DNA from: Nitrososphaerota archaeon
Lineage (GTDB): Archaea > Thermoproteota > Nitrososphaeria > Nitrososphaerales > JACPRH01
Length of the DNA: 47,624 nt
Direction of reading: 5' to 3'
Assembly: GCA_023379805.1 (NCBI GenBank)
Contig: JAMCPI010000011.1
Span: forward strand, 1-47,624
In this document: positions 3,024 to 29,792 of the stretch, one piece after another
Numbering within the stretch: position 1 is the stretch's first letter
Layout of the letters: each line of letters opens with the position of its first letter
The notes under the pieces: model-generated
Database searches by the model: none
Seen by the model: the letters and a program-made list of their open reading frames with translations, nothing else
Told to the model about the DNA's origin: nothing
Program-made: the position numbers and the translations under genes

Positions 3024-6000
3024 ATGGTCTTCATAAGAAAGGTGGAGGCCCGTGGCTTCAAGTCCCTCGGAGATAAAACGGTGGTAGTCAAGTTTGAACC
3101 ATCGTTCAATGCGATTACAGGCCCGAACGGCTCAGGCAAGTCCAACATTATGGACTCGATTCTTTTCTGCCTCGGGCAGAACAGCCCCAAGAAACTCCGC
3201 GTCGACCGGTTAACATCACTAATCTACGACGGCGGCCCAAGCGTCAGGAGACCACAGGCAATCAGAGTCTCCGTCACTTTAGACAATACAAAGAGACAGA
3301 TACCCATCGACTCCGACACCGTCACCGTCACACGGGAGCTGAGGCAAACCGGCGAAAACATCTATCTGTTGAACGGTAAACGCGTCACCAAAAACGTGAT
3401 GAATGAAACCCTGAGCATCGCTCTGATATCACCCGAAGGATTAAACTTCGTACCCCAAGGAATCATCACCCGGTTATCCGAGCTTGTACCTGACGAAAAA
3501 CGCGGGTTAATCGAGGAGATCGTGGGAGTAGCTCAGTTCGACGAAAAGAAGGAACGAGCTCTCACACAGCTCCGAGACGCAGACACTAAGCTTCAAGTCG
3601 CCTTAGCAAGAATCGGCGAAATGAAGACCCATGTTGATTCACTGGAGCGAGAGCGAAACGATCAGCTCAGACTAAAAATCTTGGAAGAAGACATCAGGTG
3701 GCTGAAAGCGGTTCTCGCTTCGCAGAACATTTCAAACGCGCGGCAGAGAATTAACAAGGAGAAGAAGCAGCTTGAAGAGTACAATGCCAGCCTAGGAAAA
3801 CTAACCAAGGATATTGAAACGCTCGACCAGAAGATCCAAGTCCTCGAAGACGAGCGTAAAGGCTTCGTATCAAACGTGATTGACGGCTCAGGTGGACAGA
3901 GAGTTGAGCTTGAGTTTGCAATTGGAAGAGCCGGAAGCGAAATTGAACGAATCAAACGAGAAACCTCGGAAGCCGAGATACTAGTCAAGAAGATTGAAGA
4001 GTCGCTCCCCCACCTCGCAAAAATGCTGGAGAAGCAGTCAAGCGAGACTGAAGCGCTGCAGAACCAGATACTGACAAATGAGAGCGAGGTCAAGGAGCTT
4101 GAGAAGACGAAGGATAATGTTGAAAACAGCTTCAGACTACTAAGCAACGAGCAGGTTAAGCTCCAAACAGTGGTAGAGAAGAAGGAGGCACAGGTTGAAA
4201 TCCTGAGGCAACGAATCACACTCTACAAAGGAAAGATGGATGAGAACCTCAGGCAGATCGGAGTCGGCCGCAACGACAAGATACTCGTCGCGGAGAGGCT
4301 GCAGGTTCTTCAAGAGAAATCTAAGACATTCCTTGAGACACTAGCCCACCTTGAAGAGCAGCTAACCAAGCTTGAGGAGCTCGCCCACCTCGAGGAGGAC
4401 TCATTGCAGAAGGTCGGCGCATCACTCACAGGCCTATCCGATCGTGAAACAAAGCTTCAGGATGAGGTGGGAAAAGCACTATCCATCCTCAACAAGGTCA
4501 GCGACACCGTGCTCCGATTCGAGACGCAGAGATCTGTCGCAGAGAAGGTTGCGGCTGAGGAGGTAGGGCTCCGCAGACTTGAGAGCCTCGCGAAGACCGG
4601 CGCGATTGAAGGATACATTGGAAAACTAAGCGACCTAATCACGTATCCGACAGAGTATGAGGCGGCTGTGGGTTCAGCTGGACGCCGCTGGATGAAAGCG
4701 ATAATTGTCAAAGATCTCCGAGCGATGCTGAAGACGGCCGAGGTCGCGAAGCGTTTCAAAACAGGCTGGTTCACCGTCATCCCCCTGTCAGAGGTCTCAA
4801 ACTCTAAACGCATCAGACCGCCGAGAGACACAGGGGTGCTCGGCACACTAGCCGAAGTGGTGAAGTGTGAAGATAATTACGGTGGACTAGTAAACTTCCT
4901 ATTTGGAGACATCGTACTTGTAAGGAGCCCGCGGGATGCTTACATCGCCTCATCCAAAGGTTTCAGAAGCGTCACAACTGCTGGAGACCTGTTCGAGCCT
5001 GGAAGCACAGCCTTCGAAAGCGGTTACTTAGCGAAGACGAATGAAATTTTGGCACTGGTAAAAGACGAAACGTCCTTCACTACAGTGAAAGGCGCGTTAA
5101 AATCACTCCAAGACACAATCTCGAAGCGAAAGAAAGATATCGATCTGTTGCAGGTCGAAGCAAAGCGGCTGAATGAAGAAAAGACTCGACGCAGCATCGT
5201 ATTAGAACGGGTGAAGGCTGAAACCAACACCATCACAGGCTTCATCAAAAAATACAGGAGAATGAAGAAACAGATTGACATACGTGTCGCACACCACACC
5301 CACAGCGTCGAAGCGGCTGACAAGAGAGTCCAGAGGCTTGAAGCAATCCAGAACAGTCTCAACAGTAAGATCGAGCGGTGCGAAGCCAAAATCGCCGAGA
5401 TAGCGCCACAAAAGGTCTCAGAGGAAATCAGACGCCTAGAAGGAGAGAAGAACGAGAAGAGGAGACTCATTGAAGAAACATCGATGCGGCTCCGTGAAGA
5501 TGTAACCCAGCTCAGCAAGGATCGAGGCAACCTTGACCACAACCTGAAGCCAAGTGTATCTCACCTCAAAGAACAGGTTGAGCAGTCTCAGGAGACACTG
5601 AAGGAGAAGAAGCAGATGATTGAGGAGGGTGCTGTGCGGCTGAACCAGCTCACCGAGGAGCTGAACCGGTTAAAGAGCGAGGAGAGCGAGACGCTGGAGA
5701 AATCTAAGAAGTCCAGACCGATACTTGAAAGCTACGACGATCGGCTTAACAGACTTAGACGTGAACGAGACAATTTGAAGAGATCCAGCACCAACATCGA
5801 GAAGGAGATTATTTCAAGCAGCAGAAGCGTAGAAGCCTTCAGCGAAACAGAACGGAGCCTCCTAGGCGAATTAACGCTGTACGGCTACAACGGCCCTTTG
5901 GAAACCTTTGAGACGGCCGGAGCCATCCTGCGTGAGCTAGGAAACGAATATGAGAAGCTGAAGAACCGTGTCAACCTCCTAGCAGTCGCCTCCTACCAAG

Positions 6001-8227: not shown

Positions 8228-8542
8228 ATGAAGGATTACGATCGGCTCGTAATCTGGGTGGATTACTTCAACTCGAATATAGGCCGATCGGAAGGAAGAC
8301 GCGTACCCCTAAGCATGGCTGTGAGAAACCCGACACTACAGGAACTAGAGGAAGCTGCGCGGCGAGCTGGATACGAATATGAAAGCCAAGAAGCAGCGTA
8401 CCCTAAGAGAATGAGAAACAAATCCGGCTACGTCTCAGTAAAACGTAGAAGAACTAAGGTGGAGACAATCAAAGAGCTAGCGGCTCTTCTATCCACAATA
8501 CGCGGTGAAGAGAGACGTGAAGGCAAGGGGCAAAGAGGCTGA
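8228..8542 (+). CDS. signal recognition particle 19 kDa protein (SRP19)
   Basis: Binds helices 6 and 8 of 7S RNA and helps assemble SRP54 on it for membrane targeting. The family opening (VIWVDYFNSNIGRSEGRRVP, residues 8-27) and the LEEAARRAGYEYE and YPKRMRNKSGYVSV motifs are visible. The C-terminus is basic and ends within the start of trm1. It lies 21 bases after eS8 and overlaps trm1, so the three genes probably share one transcript. Confidence 0.9.
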   Translation: MKDYDRLVIWVDYFNSNIGRSEGRRVPLSMAVRNPTLQELEEAARRAGYEYESQEAAYPKRMRNKSGYVSVKRRRTKVETIKELAALLSTIRGEERREGKGQRG

Positions 8543-9752
8543 TGCAGCAATTAACAACAATAACAGCGGTAGACAATCTGAAGATATTGTAACTATCAAT
8601 GAATCTGAAATTGCCGAAATCACCGAAGGAGACACAACCCTGTATGTACCCAAGTCTAGCCTAGATGCAACTGTTCCTCCGAAAGCCCCTGCGTTCTACA
8701 ATCCCTACGCAACACTGAACCGAGACCTCACAGTGGCAGCCTACCGCGTCTTCGCAGAAAGGAGAAGCGGCACCGTCACAATGGCGGATGTCTTAGCCGG
8801 AACCGGGGCAAGAGGAGTCCGGGTGGCAGTGGAGGTACCCAGAATAAATGAGATCTACATCAACGACGGGAATCCACGGGCCATAGAGCTCGCGAAGAGA
8901 TCAGCGGCCGTGAATAAAGTCGCCGACAAATGCAAATTCTCTGTGCAGGATGCGTGCAGACTCCTCATGGAGCACTCAGCCTATAAGAGCCGCTTCAACA
9001 TTGTCGATATAGATCCGTTCGGCTCGCCAGCACCCTATCTCGACTGCGCCCTCAGAGCCCTTGAGAAGGAGGGAATACTCTCCGCCACCGCAACCGACAC
9101 AGCAGCGCTTTGCGGCGTCTATCCCGACGTTGCGTACCGCAGATACAACGGCTACTCCCTGAGAACTGAGTACTGCCACGAAACAGGCATACGTCTACTG
9201 CTAGGCGCAGCCGCCCACCAAGCTATGCGGCTTGAACTCGGCATAAGCCCAATTTTCGTTCACCGAACCCGACACTACCTTCGCATCTACGTATCGGTTC
9301 ACCTCGGTGCAGGCTGGGTTGACCGAACCTACAGCCAGATAGGATTGATACAACACTGCTTCAAATGCAGCTACAGGTCAACCGCCGAACCGCTTCGCCT
9401 AGAGTGCCCCAAGTGCGGAGCAACTCTGAAACGTGCAGGCCCCCTGTGGATCGGTGAACTCTACGACAAAGAGTTCATCTGCACGATGGCTGAAGACTGT
9501 CAGAAGCATATGTTCAGAGAGGGGGTCAAGATGCTCGCCGCAGCGGCAGAGGAGACCGGTATGCCACCCACCTACTTCACCGCTGATCAGGTTGCAGCAG
9601 ACATCGGCGTCCGCTCACCAAGCCTCGACCATATAATTGCGCATCTCAGAGAGGGAGGCTTCAGAGCCTCTCGAAGCGCGCTGAACCCGAAGGGCATTAA
9701 AACAGACGCTCCTGCTGAAACAGTGAGAAGAGTAGTGAATCAGATAAGCTAA
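8505..9752 (+). CDS. trm1: tRNA (guanine(26)-N(2))-dimethyltransferase (Trm1)
   Basis: SAM-dependent enzyme making m2,2G26 in tRNA. A Rossmann methyltransferase core has VLAGTGARGVR near residue 95, INDGNPRAIELAKRSAAVN, and the catalytic DIDPFGSPAPYLD segment near 168. A C-terminal zinc ribbon follows (HCFKCSY ... LECPKCGATL). Its 415 residues are slightly long because of an Asn/Ser-rich N-terminal extension before the conserved AFYNPYATLNRDL. The start is uncertain: GTG 8505 or GTG 8517; the latter has GGTGA nine bases upstream. Its stop is one base from the stop of the convergent ftsJ-like gene. Confidence 0.93.
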   Translation: MKRDVKARGKEADAAINNNNSGRQSEDIVTINESEIAEITEGDTTLYVPKSSLDATVPPKAPAFYNPYATLNRDLTVAAYRVFAERRSGTVTMADVLAGTGARGVRVAVEVPRINEIYINDGNPRAIELAKRSAAVNKVADKCKFSVQDACRLLMEHSAYKSRFNIVDIDPFGSPAPYLDCALRALEKEGILSATATDTAALCGVYPDVAYRRYNGYSLRTEYCHETGIRLLLGAAAHQAMRLELGISPIFVHRTRHYLRIYVSVHLGAGWVDRTYSQIGLIQHCFKCSYRSTAEPLRLECPKCGATLKRAGPLWIGELYDKEFICTMAEDCQKHMFREGVKMLAAAAEETGMPPTYFTADQVAADIGVRSPSLDHIIAHLREGGFRASRSALNPKGIKTDAPAETVRRVVNQIS

Positions 9753-9753
9753 C

Positions 9754-10365
9754 TTAGTTGCGACCAACTGGTGGACGGTAGCCTAGAGCAACAAAGTACA
9801 TCTCGCTGGCCTGTCCCCGGCTCGCAGGAGGCTTGGCGATGAACACCTTTTCAAAAACTCCTTTAACCTGACGATGAAACTGATTCGTCGCCTCACCCTC
9901 AAAGACCTTCATGACTGCTGATCCGCCGCGTCGGAGAATATCCGGCATTAAATCAACAACCTTCGATACGAGATCGATTTGTCGTAGATGATCAATCTGC
10001 CAAACTCCGGTCACATCCGGAGCAAGATCTGAGAGAACTACATCAGCCTTGCGTGGAAGCATCTTCAGAAGCTCATCTTTAGTCGCCGGCGCAAGAACAT
10101 CACCCACCAAGAGGCGAATATTCTCCGAGATCGGCTTAATCGGCTCTAGATCTATACCGACTACGACACCAGCTCGCCCAACCTTCTCCGATGAAACTTG
10201 CAGCCAGCCACCAGGGGCAGAGCCAAAGTCAACGACAACGTAACCTGGCCGCAGAAGCCTGTAGGTTTTGTCGAGCTGCAGAAGCTTGTAGGCGGATCTG
10301 CTTCGATAGCCTTCCTTCTTAGCTAACCGCCTATACTGATCTCGTTTCGCATCCACTAGCCTCAT
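9754..10365 (-). CDS. rlmE: FtsJ/RrmJ-type 2'-O-ribose RNA methyltransferase (RlmE family)
   Basis: SAM-dependent 2'-O-methyltransferase of the RrmJ family, most likely acting on 23S rRNA. All four residues of the K-D-K-E catalytic tetrad are in place (K27, D113, K153, E188), and the SAM site is DFGSAPGGWLQ (46-56). Its 203 residues are the normal bacterial/archaeal length with no TRAM extension. The ATG start has GGTGTGAT five bases upstream. It follows the TFE-beta-like gene by 35 bases and is probably cotranscribed with it. Confidence 0.9.
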   Translation of the reverse strand: MRLVDAKRDQYRRLAKKEGYRSRSAYKLLQLDKTYRLLRPGYVVVDFGSAPGGWLQVSSEKVGRAGVVVGIDLEPIKPISENIRLLVGDVLAPATKDELLKMLPRKADVVLSDLAPDVTGVWQIDHLRQIDLVSKVVDLMPDILRRGGSAVMKVFEGEATNQFHRQVKGVFEKVFIAKPPASRGQASEMYFVALGYRPPVGRN

Positions 10366-10400
10366 GGCTAATCACACCAGTTTAAGCTATTGATTTCCAC

Positions 10401-10901
10401 TTATACCTTCTGAGTGAAGATCTTGTTGTAGATTGCTTCCTGAGTAGGCGAGATGTTCTGAGACTTCAGGTACTCTCGTGTGACCCATTCTGCGAGGGTC
10501 AGACAGGTGTAGGGCGTAATCACACCAGTTGGAGAGCATTTAATCTCCTCGGTGCAGGTTATGCAGGGGGCCTGTTCAATCGATTTGATCTGGGCTGGAA
10601 GCCGTAGAGGCGAGAGCTTGTAGGTCCATCTGCCGCCGTCAAGAACCTTCTCGCGTTTAATCATGCCCCGCTTCTCCAGCCGGATGGCGAGTCGAGAGCC
10701 GTCTCTGCTGGTCAAACTCAACTTCTTCCAGAGCTCACTCTGGAGAACGCCTTCTTTACCATGCTCCACTACTAGTTTGTATACTCTGGATGTAAAGTCA
10801 AGCAGCTCGTAATCGTCGTCATCGACTGCTGACGCTTCATCTTTGGCTTCGACTTCGATCTCTTCGCATTCTTCGTTCTGCTCGTTGTTGTTATCGTCCA
10901 T
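10401..10901 (-). CDS. TFE-beta / RPC34-like transcription factor with Fe-S-type cysteine cluster
   Basis: The protein has an acidic disordered N-terminus (about residues 1-30), a winged helix (YKLVVEHGKEGVLQSELWKK, then RLEKRGMIKREK, 41-85), and a C-terminal region with four cysteines, C113, C116, C122 and C133. That plan matches archaeal TFE-beta (homologue of RNA polymerase III subunit RPC34/hRPC39), whose cysteines hold a 4Fe-4S cluster and which aids open-complex formation with TFE-alpha. The next gene upstream encodes TFB, supporting a role in initiation. A TATA-like box sits 29 bases before the ATG. The alternative is a generic winged-helix regulator, but the cysteine spacing argues against it. 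Confidence 0.75.
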   Translation of the reverse strand: MDDNNNEQNEECEEIEVEAKDEASAVDDDDYELLDFTSRVYKLVVEHGKEGVLQSELWKKLSLTSRDGSRLAIRLEKRGMIKREKVLDGGRWTYKLSPLRLPAQIKSIEQAPCITCTEEIKCSPTGVITPYTCLTLAEWVTREYLKSQNISPTQEAIYNKIFTQKV

Positions 10902-10924
10902 TAGACCATCAAGTAGACTCCTTG

Positions 10925-10936
10925 GTTAAGTTTATT
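10925..10936 (-). promoter_or_regulatory. TATA-like box for the TFE-beta-like gene
   Basis: On the minus strand AATAAACTTAAC is centred about 29 bases before the ATG at 10901, consistent with a leaderless transcript. A second A/T-rich motif (ATATATAG) lies about 20 bases further upstream, close to the TFB stop. Confidence 0.5.
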
Positions 10937-10977
10937 CTACTAAATTAGACTATATATTTCTATCCGTAGCCTTCATT

Positions 10978-11943
10978 TCAGGCTGCAATCTTGAGGCACT
11001 GCTTTATCTCGTAGGATTCAAGTATTTCTCTGCACCTATTTCTGATCGTGACTTCAGTCACCTCTGCTACATCGGCTATCTCCCGCTGCGGAAGATGAGT
11101 GCCGAGCATAATCGAAGCCATATACACGTAGGCGGCAGCTAGACCAGCTGGGGCCTTCCCGCTGGAGATCTTGCTATCATTAGTTTCGCTTGCGAGGCGA
11201 AGAGCAACTCGCTCAACCTTAGTATCGATCCTCGCAAGATTCACTAGCTTCGAGATGTACTTGCAAATGGATGGTTGTGGCACATAATCTCGCTCGACCT
11301 CGTTCAACACGAGACGATAGTACTTTGCGACTGTCCGCTTATCAATCCGCGCAGCCCTAGAAATCTCCTTGAGAGATCTGCCAACGCCGCATTTACGGCA
11401 CGCCATATACACTGAAGCAGCGGCCATACCGGTTATCGACTTGCTTCGCGCAACCTTCATCTTAGCTGAGTCCCTATAAGTTTGTGCAGCCGTCTCCAAG
11501 ACATTCTTTGGAAGATTGAGCGCATCAGAGATCTCCGTGATCTTTGCAAGAACACTTGATAGGCTTCGCTCAGCTGTTGTGGTTCTAACCCTTCTCTGCC
11601 ATTTCTGCAGCTTGTAATACTGGTTTCTAGCGTCTCGATCCAAATAGTGTCCTTGAGAGTCACGCATACTGCCACCTATCTCGGTGGAGAGACCGAAGTC
11701 GTGTAGAGCAATCATTCGTGGTGAGCCGACGCGCACCTTCTTCGCCTTATCCTCAGGATCTATCGCTTTCCACTCGGGTCCCGTATCTTCAATATGTTCG
11801 TGAACTACGAAGCCGCAGGACGGACAAATCGCTTCACCTTGATAGTGGTCACCAATTAACCATCTGCCGCAGGTTGGGCAACGACTATCGCTGGTGTCTT
11901 CTACTTCTAGTTTTGCCAAATTTTTCACTCCGTGGAGAAGCAT
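10978..11943 (-). CDS. tfb: transcription initiation factor TFB (TFIIB)
   Basis: Recruits RNA polymerase to TBP-bound promoters. The N-terminal zinc ribbon has C22, C25, C40 and C43 (CPTCG ... CPSCG), followed by the B-finger/linker and two cyclin-fold repeats (TERSLSSVLAKITEISDALN onward, and KVERVALRLASETND onward). The C-terminal recognition helix segment EVTEVTIRNRCREI reads the BRE. At 321 residues it is standard length. The start is ambiguous: ATG 11943 (with GAAGG upstream) overlaps gar1 by 59 bases, while in-frame GTG 11928 and TTG 11919 give less overlap. Confidence 0.94.
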   Translation of the reverse strand: MLLHGVKNLAKLEVEDTSDSRCPTCGRWLIGDHYQGEAICPSCGFVVHEHIEDTGPEWKAIDPEDKAKKVRVGSPRMIALHDFGLSTEIGGSMRDSQGHYLDRDARNQYYKLQKWQRRVRTTTAERSLSSVLAKITEISDALNLPKNVLETAAQTYRDSAKMKVARSKSITGMAAASVYMACRKCGVGRSLKEISRAARIDKRTVAKYYRLVLNEVERDYVPQPSICKYISKLVNLARIDTKVERVALRLASETNDSKISSGKAPAGLAAAYVYMASIMLGTHLPQREIADVAEVTEVTIRNRCREILESYEIKQCLKIAA

Positions 11944-16027: not shown

Positions 16028-16792
16028 CTATGGTATGAGGGCAGAAAACAGCGAATCCATCAGCAGCGTGACAAGGTCTCCTACCAGCAGCATCGTGAAA
16101 AAGCCTAATGTCATAAACAGGAGGAACGGGATGCCGGGTGTACCCCAAACGTCTTGCCCCTGCAGGAACTCTTCATCCTCATTAAGCATCCGGAACACGA
16201 ATTTACGCTTGCTCCCCACCTTCTTTTCAAGAGTAAGGTAGAAGCTGCCCTCCGAGGCATACTTCATCCTGTAGCCGAGGAAAACTACGACAACCTTCCT
16301 CCACCAAGACTCATCTTCGAACCCTGCGAAGATAGCCTCGCCTCTAAGAAGCCTCAAGAGGTTGCGGAGCAGAAAGTAAACTGGAAGAATTAACACCCAC
16401 ATAGTTGCGTTAGCAAGAACCATCACAAACGTAACAGGGTTAAACAACAGATACAACGGATCATGATACATCGCAGGTAGAGCATAGATAGGCGGAGCAT
16501 ACAGCGGCAAAACTACCGATAAGGAGAGCAAAGCAAGAGCATCCGCACCAGCGTAAAAACCTAAGCGGTAAAGCAGCAAAACAATACCAGCGGTACCACC
16601 TATTACTAGAAGAGTCGAAGCTAAATCAGTAACAACGCCAGCCGTTACGAACTCATAGAAATACAGTAGGGCACCGACTGAAGAAAAGCTGATCCAGAGC
16701 CTATCATCAATCTCACGGCTCCTTATATCGAAATAAGCGGCGGAGAGCAGCATCACCGCGGCCACGGCGATACGATACTCAATAATAATCAT
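16028..16792 (-). CDS. archaeal prepilin peptidase (A24 family, FlaK/PibD-like)
   Basis: Membrane aspartyl protease that trims class III signal peptides of pilins/archaellins. Two predicted catalytic Asp residues are visible: D22 in YFDIRSREIDD and D84 in FYAGADALAL, a GxGD-type site in its archaeal GAD form. The rest is at least five hydrophobic segments and a hydrophilic C-terminal third. The frame opens at TTG 16804, but ATG 16792 is exactly 30 bases after a TATA-like box, so it is preferred (254 residues). It sits about 8 kb from a pilus operon on the same strand whose pilins carry matching cleavage motifs. Confidence 0.8.
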   Translation of the reverse strand: MIIIEYRIAVAAVMLLSAAYFDIRSREIDDRLWISFSSVGALLYFYEFVTAGVVTDLASTLLVIGGTAGIVLLLYRLGFYAGADALALLSLSVVLPLYAPPIYALPAMYHDPLYLLFNPVTFVMVLANATMWVLILPVYFLLRNLLRLLRGEAIFAGFEDESWWRKVVVVFLGYRMKYASEGSFYLTLEKKVGSKRKFVFRMLNEDEEFLQGQDVWGTPGIPFLLFMTLGFFTMLLVGDLVTLLMDSLFSALIP

Positions 16793-16816
16793 TGATCCAC
16801 GCAAGAATTAGATGGA

Positions 16817-19031: not shown

Positions 19032-19517
19032 TTACGTGGATTGATATGGTCTAGCAGCTAATCGCTCGACAGCTCGTTGCATTAACGGTATGGCGAAGAA
19101 CATACCTATGATCACAATGCCTACCAGCGTAATTCCTCCGAAGACAGGGTGAATCCACCAAGATAGCGGGATTACAGCTATACCTGCTAGGAGGACTAGA
19201 CCGCCGTAGCCACCGTTCTTAACCAGCGTTAATCTAGATCTGCTTCGCGAAGAGGCGATTTGCACATATGAATCTACAGCGCGCTTGCCATCTACCAGCG
19301 CCTTAGCTAGAAAATAGATCATTGCCGCTAAGAAGGTGAAGCTAATTATCGGTGTCAGGCTCTGAGTGCTTTGGATTAAGGAGGTCATAGGAATGAACAC
19401 AGCTAGCCCGTAAAGCCAGACTAGGAAAGTCATTAACAGGTTTAGGATGAAGGATGGAAAACTGGAACGGAACTTAATATTATACTGATTTAAGGAGCGA
19501 GCTGTTTTTTCCACCAT
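19032..19517 (-). CDS. four-TM membrane protein, paralogue of the gene at 19779-20375
   Basis: Unrecognised family, 161 residues with four hydrophobic segments (about 20-45, 54-76, 101-121, 125-147). It aligns by eye with the first gene of its operon: FLVWLYGLAVFIPMTSLI against VLIWLIGNYVFIPISRGL, and WIHPVFGGITLVGI against FIHPALAAIVLLGV, then a basic C-terminal amphipathic stretch in both. Third gene of a three-gene operon, seven bases after the 85-residue membrane protein. No enzyme motif is visible. Confidence 0.6.
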   Translation of the reverse strand: MVEKTARSLNQYNIKFRSSFPSFILNLLMTFLVWLYGLAVFIPMTSLIQSTQSLTPIISFTFLAAMIYFLAKALVDGKRAVDSYVQIASSRSRSRLTLVKNGGYGGLVLLAGIAVIPLSWWIHPVFGGITLVGIVIIGMFFAIPLMQRAVERLAARPYQST

Positions 19518-19524
19518 CTACATA

Positions 19525-19782
19525 TCACCCCAGCATTACTCGCCTCACTACTGGCGAGGCGATAATATAGAACAGTGCAGAGGCGAGGATGACCACGTAC
19601 ACGAATGAAGCCAAGAAAAATATTGCAACAAGATTGCTAGCAGCATAATTAGGTAACCAAACTGACATATACGAATGCAGCGATGATACCACAAGAACAG
19701 GCGCAACTAGGTAGTAAGCGATAAACAGCACGTCCGGTATTAAGAGAATTAAAAATATGAGAGTGAGGGTTAAGACCCTCAT
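19525..19782 (-). CDS. small two-TM membrane protein
   Basis: An 85-residue protein with two hydrophobic segments (residues 3-33 and 48-73) joined by a short extracellular or cytoplasmic loop. Not recognised. The ATG overlaps the stop of the upstream four-TM gene (ATGA), so the two are translationally coupled; the next gene starts seven bases later. Middle member of the three-gene membrane operon. Confidence 0.55.
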   Translation of the reverse strand: MRVLTLTLIFLILLIPDVLFIAYYLVAPVLVVSSLHSYMSVWLPNYAASNLVAIFFLASFVYVVILASALFYIIASPVVRRVMLG

Positions 19783-20375
19783 CGACTTTCTTCGCCCCTT
19801 GCTCTGCTAGTTAGTCTATCAGTCCACTGTCTTGAGTACCGATCAACGACGTTTGACAATGCCCTTCCACTCCTGAACAGAGTTACAACGGCCCAAGCTG
19901 TTACACCGAGTAGAACTATTGCCGCCAACGCCGGATGTATGAAGTTTAGCTGCAGTGAGAAGAGTAGAAATGCCGCTGCGACCACCAGCACGTACAGCAA
20001 TCCTCTGAAGGCGGTCCTGTAGCTGCCCACTTCCTCAGCAGACATCTGTCCGGAACTCATGCTTGTCTGGTAAGCTGCTAACCCCGCGGCTGCATCAGCC
20101 AAATTTCTTAGTTCGTTGATGATGCTGAGCACCAGCACGAACATTGCTACAAGGATGATGATGCTTACTAGCTGGGTCACAGCGTACGCTTCGATGAACA
20201 GACCTCTTGAGATGGGAATGAAGACGTAGTTACCGATGAGCCATATCAGTACTGCGATGCCGACATTAATTGCGATTTTAGGAGCGTTGTCACGAAGCTT
20301 TTCAGTCGCTGAAACATACGTGTTTCTAGCCATATCTTGCGTACTCTTACGAGAGGGTCTACTTGCGGATGCCAT
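19779..20375 (-). CDS. four-TM membrane protein, first gene of a three-gene membrane operon
   Basis: Unrecognised 198-residue protein: basic N-terminus, four hydrophobic segments (about 35-58, 65-88, 125-146, 148-168), a Ser/Gln-rich loop in the middle (YQTSMSSGQMSAEEVG), and a charged C-terminal amphipathic helix (VVDRYSRQWTDRLTSRARG). Related to the third gene of the operon. ATG 20375 is the first in-frame ATG; a TATATA motif at 20388-20397 sits only 17 bases upstream, which would instead fit the second ATG at 20333 (184 residues). The operon lies directly downstream of the giant repeat protein. Confidence 0.6.
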   Translation of the reverse strand: MASASRPSRKSTQDMARNTYVSATEKLRDNAPKIAINVGIAVLIWLIGNYVFIPISRGLFIEAYAVTQLVSIIILVAMFVLVLSIINELRNLADAAAGLAAYQTSMSSGQMSAEEVGSYRTAFRGLLYVLVVAAAFLLFSLQLNFIHPALAAIVLLGVTAWAVVTLFRSGRALSNVVDRYSRQWTDRLTSRARGEESR

Positions 20376-23966: not shown

Positions 23967-24185
23967 ATGGAAACAACAAGGCTCTCAGAAAAAGGGCAGG
24001 TAGTCATCCCGAAGGACTTTCGAGAGAAGATGGGCCTGAAACCTGGAAGCCGTTTCCTCGTCATTGCAACCGAGGACTCAATTATTCTTCAACGCATTGA
24101 GGTTGTCAAGCAGAAAATGGCTGTGGACGATATACTGAGCAAGGCAAGGAACCTCGCAGAGGGACTTTCTGGTGACAATACTTAG
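23967..24185 (+). CDS. AbrB/SpoVT-type DNA-binding protein
   Basis: Swapped-hairpin AbrB domain at the N-terminus: TTRLSEKGQVVIPKDFREKMG and then LKPGSRFLVIATEDSIIL, followed by a short helical tail (VDDILSKARNLAEGL). The domain is typical of transition-state regulators and of antitoxins. No toxin gene adjoins it, so a stand-alone transcriptional regulator is more likely. An in-frame TTG at 23952 could add five residues. It is the only plus-strand gene inside the surface module and is convergent with the last pilin gene (4-base overlap of 3' ends), so regulation of the pilus or surface genes is a reasonable guess. Confidence 0.8.
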   Translation: METTRLSEKGQVVIPKDFREKMGLKPGSRFLVIATEDSIILQRIEVVKQKMAVDDILSKARNLAEGLSGDNT

Positions 24186-24646
24186 GGCGCGTGGAAGCTT
24201 CGTTCGTAAACATTGCCGCGTAAAGTTGCTACCCTGACAATGTAAGTATGCTTAGCTATCCATCCTGAGAAGGAGCCTGAAATTGGCACCAAAACAGGCT
24301 CTGCTGACCTAGCTACTACAGTGGTCGGATTTACCCCGCCTGTACTGCCATCGATATATATTTGCGATACTTGTATAGGAATATCCGCAAAGTTTCTCAC
24401 ATAGACTGTCATTGATGAATTGTTGTTGAAAACTACGTCATCGATGGAAATACCTTCGCTCGCCTGAGCATTGCTTTGGAATATCGCGGTCGAATAGGAG
24501 GATTGTGCGCCGCCTTGAAATGATAAGGCCCAGTAGAGGACAACTGTCGCCATCATAACCGAAGCCAGCATAATGAGAAGATTACCGATGATGACTGATA
24601 TTCCTCGTCGCTGTTGGTGGAGATTCTGCCGTTGTGGTGGTATCAA
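24182..24646 (-). CDS. type IV pilin-like protein A
   Basis: A class III signal peptide: QQRRG at 11-15 followed by a hydrophobic helix (ISVIIGNLLIMLASVMMATV), cleaved by prepilin peptidase after G15. The mature 139-residue part is a beta-rich head (SMTVYVRNFADIPIQVSQIY). It is a paralogue of the pilin at 25976-26461 (DDVVFNNNSSMTVYVRN against EDVYFVDSTHLKVYVRN, and YIVRVATLRG against YTINVATTRG). TTG start overlaps the stop of the large pilin gene (TTGA). Last gene of the pilus operon. Confidence 0.75.
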   Translation of the reverse strand: MIPPQRQNLHQQRRGISVIIGNLLIMLASVMMATVVLYWALSFQGGAQSSYSTAIFQSNAQASEGISIDDVVFNNNSSMTVYVRNFADIPIQVSQIYIDGSTGGVNPTTVVARSAEPVLVPISGSFSGWIAKHTYIVRVATLRGNVYERSFHAP

Positions 24647-25995
24647 CTAGTTCTCACCGCAAGGAATGGAATACTTTGGCCGTAAGGATCGTTGGGGTTG
24701 CTGTTGTAGTTGCCTAGGAGCACTATTACACTCGCAAAAGAACTACCACTTGGAGAACCTGACCTTTGGCCTTGATTGTCTCTCGGATCCTGAGCCCCAA
24801 AATAGAGGGTAACAGTTTGGCCTGGCGCGATGATGATTGGGTCAGGGTACGCCGCGTTGTCATCGATTCCATCAAATGGGCAGACGTCATGACATCTTGG
24901 CCCTCCTGTTGGCGACTCAATTAGGTAGAACTCTGGAAAGCTTCCACGATCTGTTTGTAGGAAGGCAATCGCTGATGTCTCGTTTAATTTGATAGATTTT
25001 GTAAGATGAGTGTTTGTAACATTTACTTTCCAAATCGTGTACTTGCGTTGAGGAATAGAGAAGCCTGCTGACCACGTTACACCATTATTCTGTGACCATC
25101 TAAATGTTGATATTTGGACACGAATTGAACCAAAAACCTCCGGCGTACCTACCGTTGAGTCGCGGCCGAATGGAGTTACAACCCAAACGGTACGGTTTGC
25201 AAAATAGGAAGCACCTGTGTATCTTCCTTTGAAGGTTAAGTTTGAACCCGGCGATGGATTTGTAGTTCTATAGGTCCAACTGAATGTCGCGGTTTCACCT
25301 GAGCGGATGGAGTTAATCGTAGTTATCGTTGGAGGTGTTAAACTTGTTACGCTTGTGCAGCTGAGTGTTTTGTTGTAAGCGCAGCTAATGTCTGTTGCAG
25401 GGCTGATCCCGAGCGCGTAAAGCGCGTTATAAGCGGTGTTATTGTTGAAGACGAATAGTGTGACTCCTACGTCGTGGCTCCCAATCACTGAAGGCGGACT
25501 CGCGTCGAGAGTCATCCTTAAATTAGGTATTTGGGAGGCTGGCGCAATCCGGTAGGAAACAATGTTTCCCAGTTCTGAAACTAGTTTCAGAGTCATCTTC
25601 TTGCCGTAGGGTGCAGATCCGTTCACTACACCCATTCCACCGCTACCTATGTATGCGCTTACGTTATACAGTGCGTGCGTGTTTGGAGACGCTGTCTCAT
25701 TGATTACCCAGAGACGCACTAGGTGAACTGTTGACCCACCATTATTAGTCACAGTCAAGTTGATTGTGTTGTTTGGATTAACCGAAACACCTGAAATTGC
25801 GAAATTCTCGTTTCGCCGTTGGCTGTCAAGTTCGAACATAGAGTCTACAGCGGCGTTGTAGTCGTCAAGTCGAGCAAGGTACCACACATACAGCTGGCCC
25901 ATTGTAAAAACTAGAATGAAGACAAAAACTATTGTCGCTACGACTGTACCAATGCCGCGCCTTCCTTTTCTTATCTTAGTACTTCCATGAGCCAC
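24643..25995 (-). CDS. large type IV pilin-like protein (possible tip adhesin)
   Basis: A 450-residue protein with a class III signal: KGRRG (10-14) then the helix IGTVVATIVFVFILVFTMGQ, cleavable after G14. The mature part is far longer than a normal pilin: several beta-sandwich segments with NLTVTNNGGSTVHLVRLWVI and ITNHT-type strands, plus a Cys pair CSCT-like region near residue 205 and CHDVCPF near 380. A pilin-type N-terminus on a large head suggests a minor or tip pilin carrying adhesive function (inference). Starts 20 bases inside the 3' end of pilin B and overlaps pilin A by four bases. Confidence 0.7.
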   Translation of the reverse strand: MAHGSTKIRKGRRGIGTVVATIVFVFILVFTMGQLYVWYLARLDDYNAAVDSMFELDSQRRNENFAISGVSVNPNNTINLTVTNNGGSTVHLVRLWVINETASPNTHALYNVSAYIGSGGMGVVNGSAPYGKKMTLKLVSELGNIVSYRIAPASQIPNLRMTLDASPPSVIGSHDVGVTLFVFNNNTAYNALYALGISPATDISCAYNKTLSCTSVTSLTPPTITTINSIRSGETATFSWTYRTTNPSPGSNLTFKGRYTGASYFANRTVWVVTPFGRDSTVGTPEVFGSIRVQISTFRWSQNNGVTWSAGFSIPQRKYTIWKVNVTNTHLTKSIKLNETSAIAFLQTDRGSFPEFYLIESPTGGPRCHDVCPFDGIDDNAAYPDPIIIAPGQTVTLYFGAQDPRDNQGQRSGSPSGSSFASVIVLLGNYNSNPNDPYGQSIPFLAVRTS

Positions 25996-26461
25996 TTACT
26001 GTTGACCCCCTCGTAGTAGCAACATTGATTGTGTAGGTTTGACCATCAATCAGAGAGACACTGGTGGAGCTTACGTCTACATATACGTAGCCTGATGATT
26101 GAACGCCTAGTGATAGTTTCGACGCAATGGTACCAGCTTGGTGGTTAACATACACTTCGTCTACAACTATCTGAATCGCCCCTGTATTTCGCACATACAC
26201 CTTCAAATGCGTAGAATCAACAAAGTACACGTCTTCGACAACCAAACGCTCCTGAACTCGCTCAGTCCTTGATCTTATTGATGATGAAAAGCTGTCTCGG
26301 CTGGTTCCAACCTCGTTTAGTCCCCATAGAAGAACGACACCAGCCATGCTAGTGGTAATTAGCGTCATGATTACGACCGATAGAATGTAGCTTAAAGCAC
26401 GTCGCTGTTTCCGCCTCATCTCAAGCGGACTGGTTTGCCGCCACCTATAAGATTTAACCAA
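25976..26461 (-). CDS. type IV pilin-like protein B
   Basis: Class III signal peptide KQRRA (18-22) followed by LSYILSVVIMTLITTSMAGV; predicted cleavage after A22. The mature head of about 139 residues resembles pilin A of the same operon. The frame opens at TTG 26461, with an in-frame ATG at 26419 that would leave only seven residues before the cleavage site; either would yield the same mature pilin. It comes 24 bases after the second platform gene. Confidence 0.75.
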   Translation of the reverse strand: MVKSYRWRQTSPLEMRRKQRRALSYILSVVIMTLITTSMAGVVLLWGLNEVGTSRDSFSSSIRSRTERVQERLVVEDVYFVDSTHLKVYVRNTGAIQIVVDEVYVNHQAGTIASKLSLGVQSSGYVYVDVSSTSVSLIDGQTYTINVATTRGSTVSGSWKY

Positions 26462-26485
26462 TGGAGGACACCATCATCTCGCCTG

Positions 26486-27352
26486 TCAAGAGATTACTGA
26501 AGGCTGTATCACAATGGTGAAGATAAGCATGGACAGGATTAGCAGGGTGAGGACATGCTTTAGACCCGCCACAAGCGCGCCTTCGCTCATCTTGCCTGCG
26601 ATAAAGCCGGCCAATACTGATTCTATTACCGACATGTGGAAGAACCAGATGTAGTAGACTTGAGGGTTAATGTTGCTACCGAAGGGTGCTCCCGCCTTGA
26701 TAACTGCCGATATCTGGCTGAAGAAGGTTAGGAAAAGCACGACTACTACGAATATGTAGACGCCGAATGAGGCGTAGATAACCATCACGTAAGGGCTCAT
26801 CTGGCGCATTCTGTCACGTTCCATATCCTGAACTTCACGAATGTGAGAGTAGATAGTGTCAAGTATCTCATGTAGGTTGCCGCCCGAGTGACCCACTTCG
26901 CTCAGAAGAGCAACTGTCCTGTAGACCAACGGAGTATCGATTCGTTTCGCCATCTCGTCGAGCGCTTCAGTATACGGATGTCCCCACGTCATCAGAGCGA
27001 CAACTCGCTTGAGCTCCTTGGAAAGCGGGCCGTATTCAAGCCTTGCAGAATGCTCTATCGCCTTAGTGAAGGCCATGCCTGTCTTCTGGGAATCAGCAAT
27101 ATCTCGGATGAACTCAGGTAGCTTCGAGTCGACTGCTCGTTTCCATCTGCGGTTCATCATATCTAGTATTGATGGTGGAATGAGCGCGACGATGAGGGAA
27201 AGTACTAGCATATTGTCGAAGCCGGGGTGAGAATTGTACCCTGGCCAGACGAAGGTGGAAAATAGAAGCAGTGCTAGCGCCAAAATGACTGAGAGACCGT
27301 AAGCCAGCACCAAAATTCGCCGATTGATATGGAAAGCCAGCATTCGAATCAC
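26486..27352 (-). CDS. pilus platform membrane protein, TadC-like (T2SF domain)
   Basis: Integral membrane platform protein of type IV pilus/Tad systems. The T2SF domain is visible: KLPEFIRDIADSQKTGMAFT, then LSEVGHSGGNLHEIL (the G-x-L pattern of the family), with hydrophobic segments at about 12-34, 45-62, 195-220, 232-255 and 260-285. At 288 residues it is a half-size platform protein, and its partner gene overlaps it by four bases upstream. Such paired short platform proteins are typical of Tad and of the archaeal pili from which Tad is thought to derive. Confidence 0.85.
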   Translation of the reverse strand: MIRMLAFHINRRILVLAYGLSVILALALLLFSTFVWPGYNSHPGFDNMLVLSLIVALIPPSILDMMNRRWKRAVDSKLPEFIRDIADSQKTGMAFTKAIEHSARLEYGPLSKELKRVVALMTWGHPYTEALDEMAKRIDTPLVYRTVALLSEVGHSGGNLHEILDTIYSHIREVQDMERDRMRQMSPYVMVIYASFGVYIFVVVVLFLTFFSQISAVIKAGAPFGSNINPQVYYIWFFHMSVIESVLAGFIAGKMSEGALVAGLKHVLTLLILSMLIFTIVIQPSVIS

Positions 27353-28230
27353 TTTTGAGACATTGAGTCTATCATCAGTATGACTGCAACGCCAGCACCA
27401 GGTACTAATCCGTATATGATGAGCGGAACAAGTGTTGCGGGGCTGGTGCCTCCTATATCGCCTCCACCTATGGAAGACATTACAACCAGCATTACAATCA
27501 TGATGAGGGGGAACGCGACCAGTAAAGCCATGTAGATTTCTGAAACCATTACAAGCGTATCGATAAACTCCTTCATAATTGAACGCCTCAGCCTCATCAG
27601 ACTGCGAGACTCTTCCTCCAAATACCCAGTTAGAACCCCACCACCCTTAACAGTCGAAATTACGCCTTCCAACACACCGGAAAAGAGAGGAGAAATTTTT
27701 CGTCTAGCAACAGACCTCAGGGCTGTAATCATATCTTCACCGAGAACCTCCATGTCACGGTAGATCGCCCTTCCCTCACCGCCTAGACCGACTTCTCGCT
27801 CCTGCTCCAGAAGCGCAATCATCTTGAAGATCCGTTTCGGAGGCACACCTGCACTTGAAAGAATACTCATGAAGCTCAGGGTGAAGGGAAGACCTTCCTC
27901 TATCATCCTACGTTTCTTACCTGCCACAGTCGAGGGATAGAGGTAGAAGAGAGCGAAAACTATCATTGATCCAGATATACCTATTCCGATGCTCAAAACC
28001 GTCGAAAAGATCAGATTAAGTGTAAAGACATACGCTAGAACAAAGACGTTCAGAGCGACCCCGAAGAATGCGATGAGCGCCACCAGCACAATCATGCTCA
28101 CATAGGCTTCTACAGGTAGCATAAGTCCCGCCTTGTCCAGCACCTCTTGTAGACTATGGAAGCTGTTGTTGAATCGCTTGACCTGCTTACCGAAGAGCCG
28201 TTGCGAGAAGATAGCTAATTCCAGAATCAA
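27349..28230 (-). CDS. pilus platform membrane protein, TadB-like (T2SF domain)
   Basis: Second half-size platform protein, 293 residues, with the T2SF pattern GLPFTLSFMSILSSAGVPP and GVISTVKGGGVLTGYLEEE, and TM segments near 40-65, 75-97, 225-250 and 268-288. It overlaps the ATPase gene upstream and the TadC-like gene downstream by four bases each, so stoichiometric coupled synthesis is likely. The two platform proteins would form the membrane base that the ATPase drives. Confidence 0.85.
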   Translation of the reverse strand: MILELAIFSQRLFGKQVKRFNNSFHSLQEVLDKAGLMLPVEAYVSMIVLVALIAFFGVALNVFVLAYVFTLNLIFSTVLSIGIGISGSMIVFALFYLYPSTVAGKKRRMIEEGLPFTLSFMSILSSAGVPPKRIFKMIALLEQEREVGLGGEGRAIYRDMEVLGEDMITALRSVARRKISPLFSGVLEGVISTVKGGGVLTGYLEEESRSLMRLRRSIMKEFIDTLVMVSEIYMALLVAFPLIMIVMLVVMSSIGGGDIGGTSPATLVPLIIYGLVPGAGVAVILMIDSMSQK

Positions 28231-29792
28231 TATGCTTCAATCCGGATCTCGTTCATGAGATCGTCAGCATCAATGTAATACCTTCGCACAATGTCTGTCA
28301 CATCTGTGTATTTACGGATGTTCTTCTTCAACATCCATTCAAGCACTATTTTCCTGTTCTCAAGTTCCGAGTTAAGCCGCTCAACACTGTAGCCATTTGC
28401 TTTGGCGATCTTTTCCATTATGTATGATCGTCCAGCGTACTTGAAGGTGTCAGAAGGCTGATCGTATTGAAATACGTTATTTGTTATAAACTCGTTTGTC
28501 CGAGTATCTAAGCCGAGTATCTCAGTCATAGCCATTATACGTCTCGTCGGTTTCCCGGCAATGGTTACTCGTGACTGATGCAGAATATAGTTCACTGAGG
28601 GAACAAGCATCCTAGGAATACTCATTGGCGGTGAAGTTAACCTGTTGAAGACCGCTTGAACCGAGTCGGCGTGAACTGAGCTAAGCCCGGCGTGACCTGT
28701 CGAAATAGCTTGGAACAGGGTTGAGGCTTCAGCTCCTCGAACCTCACCTACAATGATGAAGTCGGGTCTCTGCCTCAAAGCTGCCTTTAACAGATCGTAA
28801 AGCGAAACCTCACCTACACCTGCGACCCCAGTTCTGGATATCGATTGAATCCAGTTTTTATGCGCTAAGTTGATTTCGGGGGTGTCTTCGATGCTGACAA
28901 TCTTTGCCTCTGGGCGAATAAACATTGATAGACAGTTAATTGTCGTAGTCTTACCTGAAGCAGTCCCGCCCGCTAGAAGAATTGAGGACTTGTTCTCAAG
29001 TGCGAGCCAAACCATTGCTGCCATCTCACTGCTGAGCGTCCCGAAGCGTAGGAGATCTACAACGCTGAACGGGTCTTCCTTGAACTTCCTAATCGTGAAG
29101 GTTGAGCCCTTCTTCGTCACCTCAGTGCCGTACGTCATCTGTATTCTGCTTCCGTCAGGGAGAGCTGCATCTATGAGGGGCTCAGCAACGGAAACATGCT
29201 TACCTGAGAAGTATGCCATTCTGAGGATAAACTTGTCAAGCTCCTCTGCACTATTGAACATCAGAGTGGTCGGAATCGACTCGTATTCTCGATGCCAGAT
29301 ATAGATAGGTATCTTGACTCCGTCACAACTAATATCCTCAATCATAGGATCCTTCATCAGTGGATCAATAATGTAGTAGCCAAGCAGATCGCGGTTAAGA
29401 TAATACATAATCTTGTCGAAGGTGCTCTTAGGCATCTTCACGTCGAAACGCTTCAGAATCTCAAGAACCTTGTTCTTCAGATATGAGTCTACGCTTTTAG
29501 TCTTTTCAAGTGTTCGAACATCAACTTCAAGTGCGATTTTTAACAGTTCTTTAACTCGTTTAAGAAGATCCTGCTCCTTCGGAATAAGAACCGGTTCGAT
29601 CACCGAGTAAATCATCGTTCCGCTTTCAGGGTTCTGAGTGATACCCACGTACACGAAAGGCTCGAAGATAGGGTAGGTCTCAACGAAAGTAGTTGACTCT
29701 AAAGACGTTTCTGATGTGGGCGGCGCATCTGGAGTAGGTTGCTCGAGCTGTTTAACTGGTTTAGGTTCTTTTCTCCGTCTAAGAAAGCTCAA
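28227..29792 (-). CDS. type IV pilus/Tad-like secretion ATPase
   Basis: Hexameric VirB11/TadA-type ATPase powering pilus assembly. Walker A is AGGTASGKTTT with K281; the Asp box/Walker B region DFIIVGEVRGAE and His box STGHAGLSSVHAD follow. An N-terminal domain of about 180 residues includes a Pro/Glu-rich start and DPMIEDISCDGVKIPIYIWH, the conserved archaeal secretion-ATPase lead-in. 521 residues is normal for archaeal pilus ATPases. TTG start; first gene of a six-gene operon. Absence of FlaF/G/H/J-type archaellum genes next to it argues for adhesive pili, not an archaellum. Confidence 0.9.
   Translation of the reverse strand: MSFLRRRKEPKPVKQLEQPTPDAPPTSETSLESTTFVETYPIFEPFVYVGITQNPESGTMIYSVIEPVLIPKEQDLLKRVKELLKIALEVDVRTLEKTKSVDSYLKNKVLEILKRFDVKMPKSTFDKIMYYLNRDLLGYYIIDPLMKDPMIEDISCDGVKIPIYIWHREYESIPTTLMFNSAEELDKFILRMAYFSGKHVSVAEPLIDAALPDGSRIQMTYGTEVTKKGSTFTIRKFKEDPFSVVDLLRFGTLSSEMAAMVWLALENKSSILLAGGTASGKTTTINCLSMFIRPEAKIVSIEDTPEINLAHKNWIQSISRTGVAGVGEVSLYDLLKAALRQRPDFIIVGEVRGAEASTLFQAISTGHAGLSSVHADSVQAVFNRLTSPPMSIPRMLVPSVNYILHQSRVTIAGKPTRRIMAMTEILGLDTRTNEFITNNVFQYDQPSDTFKYAGRSYIMEKIAKANGYSVERLNSELENRKIVLEWMLKKNIRKYTDVTDIVRRYYIDADDLMNEIRIEAY

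Follow-up and report, generated by a model that had tools for sequence, protein, structure and literature searches.

Why do three tightly packed genes for small membrane proteins sit beside a giant surface protein in a Nitrososphaerota archaeon, and does that neighbor account for them? The window (the whole 47,624-nt stretch of contig JAMCPI010000011.1 that was analyzed) carries, 167 bases upstream of the first of these genes, the gene for a 927-aa protein with Big_1 domains, a C-terminal transmembrane (TM) segment, and a basic tail. A SlaB-like protein is encoded downstream of the third gene, and the surface-protein region is flanked by a FlaK-like prepilin peptidase gene (positions 16028 to 16804) and a type IV pilus operon (positions 24182 to 29792; an ATPase, two TadC-like proteins, and pilin-like proteins). 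From this context, the original prediction took the three small proteins for a membrane base or export helper of the giant protein. The genes, which we call A, B, and C in their order on the minus strand, are as follows.

19779..20375, minus strand: gene A, first in the module (ORF call), a four-helix membrane protein of 198 aa with an N-terminal helix, WLIGNYVFIP in TM1, an IHP turn between helices 3 and 4, an RSGRALS motif, and a long C-terminal amphipathic helix
19525..19782, minus strand: gene B (ORF call), a two-TM hairpin of 85 aa with an Asp in TM1 (IPDVLF)
19032..19517, minus strand: gene C (ORF call, BLASTP, hhalign, AlphaFold2), a four-helix membrane protein of 161 aa whose loop and tail are shorter than those of A

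The last 4 bases of A double as the first 4 of B, and 7 bases separate B from C, which confirms the layout first described for the locus. Also confirmed is the pattern said to unite the outer two proteins, W-L-x-G-x-x-VFIP in TM1 followed by IHP: A reads WLIGNYVFIP, C reads WLYGLAVFIP, and both carry IHP. Homologues of B occur in genomes G001, G020, and G059. Two scans of the DNA itself were not used as evidence: a sigma-70 promoter scan gave the same counts as in shuffled sequences, and terminator-like sites numbered 3, versus 1.0 (standard deviation, 1.0) in shuffles.

All three proteins stay below the curated cut-offs of Pfam and NCBIfam, in agreement with the earlier description of the family as unrecognized. 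Matches to several candidate families are weak: the match of the window's A to PMT_4TMC falls below the curated cut-off, matches to DUF2207_C and LPG_synthase_TM are scattered (11 of 26 A proteins, best 1e-5; 3 of 25 C proteins, best 9e-6), and those to DUF373 are weak or scattered.

A and C as paralogues

By BLASTP, A and C share 25% identity over 154 columns (E = 9e-9), and when A is searched against the window's genome, only A itself and C match (C at E = 1e-5). The pair scores 114 by Smith-Waterman. Among 192 segments taken from other multi-TM proteins, the top score is 62, and none of 1,000 shuffles that preserve residue class (hydrophobic, polar, or charged) gets there either, the highest being 96. 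Profile-profile alignment by hhalign (26 A sequences versus 25 C sequences) relates the two families with a probability of 99.6 (E = 4.8e-24), so that the paralogy of the first and third proteins, proposed at the outset from matching segments, holds at the profile level. On sequence grounds, the two are paralogues that arose as copies of a single archaeal membrane protein with four helices and have since diverged.

The predicted structures bear out the four-TM plan anticipated for both proteins. AlphaFold2 places helices in A at residues 9 to 59, 64 to 108, 113 to 146, and 148 to 197 (pLDDT 76, pTM 0.53) and in C at residues 2 to 47, 54 to 88, 98 to 122, and 124 to 154 (pLDDT 64, pTM 0.48); these are single-chain models of moderate confidence, built from shallow alignments of eight sequences. 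In both models, IHP lies at a one-residue break between helices 3 and 4. By plain hydropathy, TM3 of A falls below the cut-off used. Searched against the PDB with Foldseek, the A model has no match under E 0.001 (which does not by itself mean a new fold); its best VIA-align hits are generic helical bundles (Z 9.2), and a sequence-profile search of the PDB with A and C returned nothing below E 0.008, a designed TM protein being the best match.

Conservation of the A-(B)-C module

Matches to the A family were found in 5 of 101 relatives (including a weak G029 protein), in 9 of 400 genomes within the class (2 of them broken fragments), and in 22 of 398 within the phylum (2 of them weak: G547, and G622, whose match is interrupted by stops). 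Two further classes yielded matches in 22 of 256 genomes (that of G606, where G835 has only a partial, C-sized match) and in 6 of 81 (that of G647). Those relatives that bear names are groundwater Thaumarchaeota assemblies and archaeon H03B2.

Our set of A-family loci comprises 38 loci from 14 archaeal families and excludes the distant G547 protein. According to ORF calls, C follows A on the same strand at 35 of them. The exceptions are L079, where both genes are present and the A call is lost to an overlapping frame; L096, where the contig stops before C and a B-like ORF is present; and L078, a second copy with A and without C. A small two-TM ORF (78 to 93 aa) occupies the B slot in 16 of the 35 A-C pairs and at L096, for a total of 17 loci, and 14 of the 17 copies carry an Asp in TM1, as read by eye. 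Pairs without B are spaced at most 89 bases apart, leaving no room for it. Comparison of gene order and sequence thus marks A-(B)-C as a conserved, co-inherited module, which upholds the earlier view of the three genes as one unit.

A wider four-helix superfamily

The G547 protein (locus L097), which aligns with the A profile at an hhalign probability of 96.4, provided the entry point to a wider superfamily. Its relatives, here termed D, occur in 41 of the 201 genomes searched in G547's class. Like A and C, D proteins measure about 160 to 200 aa and have four helices, and their profile aligns with that of A at 98.3 (E 1.8e-14) and with that of C at 97.9. Two additional forms connect through D: T, a tandem protein of 340 to 350 aa (the halves of the L013 copy are 39% identical, E 1e-27), whose halves align with D at 99.2, and F, a C-terminal domain of larger proteins (97.6 with D). 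F scores 7.2 with A and 8.7 with C and is linked to them only through D. No relatives of the L013 tandem protein turned up when 150 genomes from the window's class were searched directly; they surfaced via D.

As a control, we compared 96 membrane-protein profiles with A and C by hhalign, and all those outside the superfamily score at most 6.6; the only profiles to exceed this value are those of L097, the L013 tandem protein (44%), the C protein called in the wrong frame at L079, and the A and C cluster itself. Read by eye, a G-R pair recurs at the end of the last TM segment in A (RSGRA), D (YDIGR), and T (WDVGR) and is absent in C and F. From these profile relationships, A, C, D, T, and F appear as members of one wider four-helix archaeal superfamily that lacks a curated name. 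Beyond weak, scattered matches, the A, C, D, and T members scanned fall within no family in Pfam or NCBIfam, and a literature search, judged by titles and the openings of abstracts, found nothing on the family. Osmotic homeostasis is a known theme; the A/C/D/T/F family itself is not known.

Partners of D, T, and F

Directly after D stands a CitMHS/ArsB-type transporter (PF03600, PF02040) at 22 of 25 loci; 3 lack it, of which one (L165) precedes the trehalose synthase gene treT. A 26th D locus, L186, where no D ORF was called, lies outside the 25. The transporter thus looks like an obligate operon partner of D, while A, C, and D themselves match neither transporter model. The operon is conserved at L097 (positions 8248 to 10373) and at L167 to L188, running from D through the transporter to, usually, a soluble protein of 83 to 100 aa, whose L097 copy has no match in Pfam or NCBIfam.

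T is divergent from genes for an unnamed 126- to 150-aa protein and the trehalose synthase TreT (PF21269, NF041139) at all three of its loci, in three families.

L013, 9127 to 12140: tandem T locus with TreT
L162, 4923 to 7735: tandem T locus with TreT
L163, 4333 to 7210: tandem T locus with TreT

F is the C-terminal domain of four proteins related to di-myo-inositol-phosphate synthase (IPCT/DIPPS), in which a nucleotidyltransferase is joined to a CDP-alcohol transferase.

L160, 941 to 2878: F-bearing nucleotidyltransferase/CDP-alcohol-transferase protein
L161, 3210 to 5111: F-bearing protein of the same kind
L191, 3232 to 5091: F-bearing protein of the same kind
L192, 2546 to 4402: F-bearing protein of the same kind

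Two of them match the bifunctional IPCT/DIPPS model NF041135 across both enzyme domains (E 6e-77 and 5e-65); the matches end at residues 427 to 438 of proteins of 645 and 633 residues, and F lies beyond. The other two, from family f50, have 618 to 619 aa, and the one scanned matches NF041135 only over the nucleotidyltransferase half. In Pfam, the first two match NTP_transferase and CDP-OH_P_transf. Since the NF041135 matches lie below the strict equivalog cut-off, they do not prove the product, and the fused enzymes might synthesize a different inositol compound instead. Homologues of the bifunctional synthase thus either bear F at the C terminus or, as described below, adjoin A-C; the NF041135 model neither covers nor describes the four-helix domain.

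Genes adjoining A-C

Near A-C lie IPCT/DIPPS-like genes, MPGS (TIGR02460, over the cut-off), a GpgS-like gene, and MscS. Queries for these four kinds of genes gave 10 matches in 317 kb within 5 kb of A-C and 1 match in 415 kb of more distant and background sequence. Because the queries were drawn from near loci, 5 of the 10 near matches are the seed proteins themselves; without seeds, the count is 5 in 317 kb versus 1 in 415 kb, and one of the five (L071) shares a genus with its seed. HAD, small-protein, and GT4 queries were omitted from this count because they were too general or were defined at A-C loci. Suggestively, then, compatible-solute and mechanosensitive-channel genes are commoner near A-C, and the signal is modest. 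Many A-C loci have no such neighbor within 5 kb, namely, those of families f1, f13, f31, f43, f50, f75, f84, f88, and f97.

Genes for ClC, CorA, an Na/Ca exchanger, and VIT1 adjoin A-C in single lineages. When 104 genes near A-C and 104 far from it were scanned with Pfam (near-identical genes merged, L097 and ORFs shorter than 110 aa excluded), at least 9 ion-transport matches came from the near set versus at least 3 from the far set, a difference that is again suggestive. In the window itself, the osmolyte-enzyme and MscS queries match nowhere in the 47.6 kb; its genome carries a TreT, with no superfamily member beside it, and no match to IPCT/DIPPS or MPGS.

Several individual arrangements are recorded here as observations. 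At L092 (positions 3409 to 4461), an MscS-type channel with a C-terminal Ig-like match (Big_3_5, E 2e-5) is divergent from A. In family f18 (L033, positions 8264 to 11797; L034; L035), a divergent gene for a small HTH protein lies upstream of A-C and a GT4 glycosyltransferase gene lies downstream, the L033 copy being nearest to mannosylglucosylglycerate synthase (E 1e-19, below the cut-off). Subunits of the proton-pumping NADH dehydrogenase/Mrp-type antiporter kind adjoin A-C in three families (L069, L071, L081, L082, L088, and L096).

One likeness noticed by eye did not survive comparison. Proteins with the conserved TM helix of the MscS family (PF05552, MS_channel_1st_1) and tandem TM_helix proteins resemble A and C in being small archaeal proteins with repeated TM hairpins, in ending in a basic amphipathic helix, and in their osmotic theme. 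At the sequence level, kinship was rejected: hhalign of A versus 11 PF05552 proteins gave 2.2%, within the background of unrelated membrane proteins, and Pfam found neither the TM helix nor the MscS beta-domain in A, B, or C of the window or, among the matches listed, in A, C, and D members.

Proposed function and alternatives

Our tentative reading, which we hold at somewhat less than even odds, is that A-(B)-C forms a hetero-oligomeric unit that serves osmotic and ionic homeostasis, most probably by sensing or regulating from within the membrane. A and C would form the hetero-oligomer, joined in some lineages by the two-TM protein B; this is suggested by the obligate pairing of A with C and by the existence of the tandem form T. 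The unit would read tension, turgor, or ionic strength in the membrane and tune osmolyte synthesis and the transport of ions or solutes. The proposed part in osmotic balance derives from the gene partners of the superfamily, and, because no osmolyte gene adjoins the window's copy, its role is taken from the family. A broader version, which we consider doubtful, would make the four-helix domain a general osmotic sensor that, throughout Thermoproteota, links the state of the membrane to ion transport and to the making of compatible solutes, in four forms: the A-C heteromer (with or without B), the tandem at trehalose-synthase loci, the transporter-linked single protein, and a built-in regulator of di-myo-inositol-phosphate synthase.

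The main rival has A-C, together with B where present, acting as a small channel or transporter in its own right, for instance, a tension-gated release valve or an ion pathway for which B supplies the membrane Asp. Subunits of two to four TM segments in an obligate pair would suit this reading, as would the Asp seen in most copies of B, the channel and transporter genes (MscS, ClC, CorA, Na/Ca exchanger, and VIT1) among the neighbors of A-C, and the pairing of D with a CitMHS/ArsB transporter. Yet B is absent from more than half of the A-C pairs, alignments of A and C read by eye show no conserved charged residue in mid-membrane, and neither Pfam nor hhalign relates them to MscS or its conserved TM helix. 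The end of a biosynthetic enzyme is an odd place for a channel, and because the domain is fused to biosynthetic enzymes that are already membrane bound, sensing or regulating is more likely than conducting; we rate the channel as unlikely, with a real if minor chance of being right.

Less probable again is that the superfamily is a general membrane-organizing or lipid-binding scaffold domain without a specific osmotic role. Such a domain would fit the widely varying neighbors, the many loci with housekeeping genes only, and the lack of recognized catalytic residues; against it, the partners of T (TreT at 3 of 3 loci), F (four related enzymes), and D (the transporter at 22 of 25) are too narrow a set. 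The explanation from which the locus was first read, that A-C serves the giant surface protein as a base in the membrane or as an aid to its export, or else belongs to the nearby type IV pilus system, is now very improbable, and we reject it after comparing the neighbors at 38 loci. It had in its favor the position of the window's module, 167 bases after the Big_1 protein and between the pilus operon and the FlaK-like peptidase, as well as the genes for a pilus ATPase and TadC that also adjoin A-C at two f50 loci (L080 and L084). However, these two and the window make up all the A-C loci with pilus genes nearby (3 of 38), and the giant protein, the SlaB-like protein, a 223-aa membrane protein, and the peptidase are found near A-C in genus g1 alone, namely, in the window and the congener G001. 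In G001, moreover, a transposase-like ORF (TnpB type, judged by eye; L010, positions 9979 to 11298) splits C from the SlaB-like gene. Other A-C loci adjoin purine genes, respiratory subunits, channels, or osmolyte enzymes. A guess drawn from one context is thereby replaced by a reading based on many genomes, that of a unit for osmotic and ionic homeostasis.

To our knowledge, little is known about how archaea detect changes in osmotic conditions or turgor. With a fusion to a likely compatible-solute synthase, a trehalose synthase as neighbor, and an operon with a transporter, the superfamily offers a concrete, testable candidate for such sensing, and the F-fused enzymes allow a direct question to be put: does the four-helix domain control solute synthesis?
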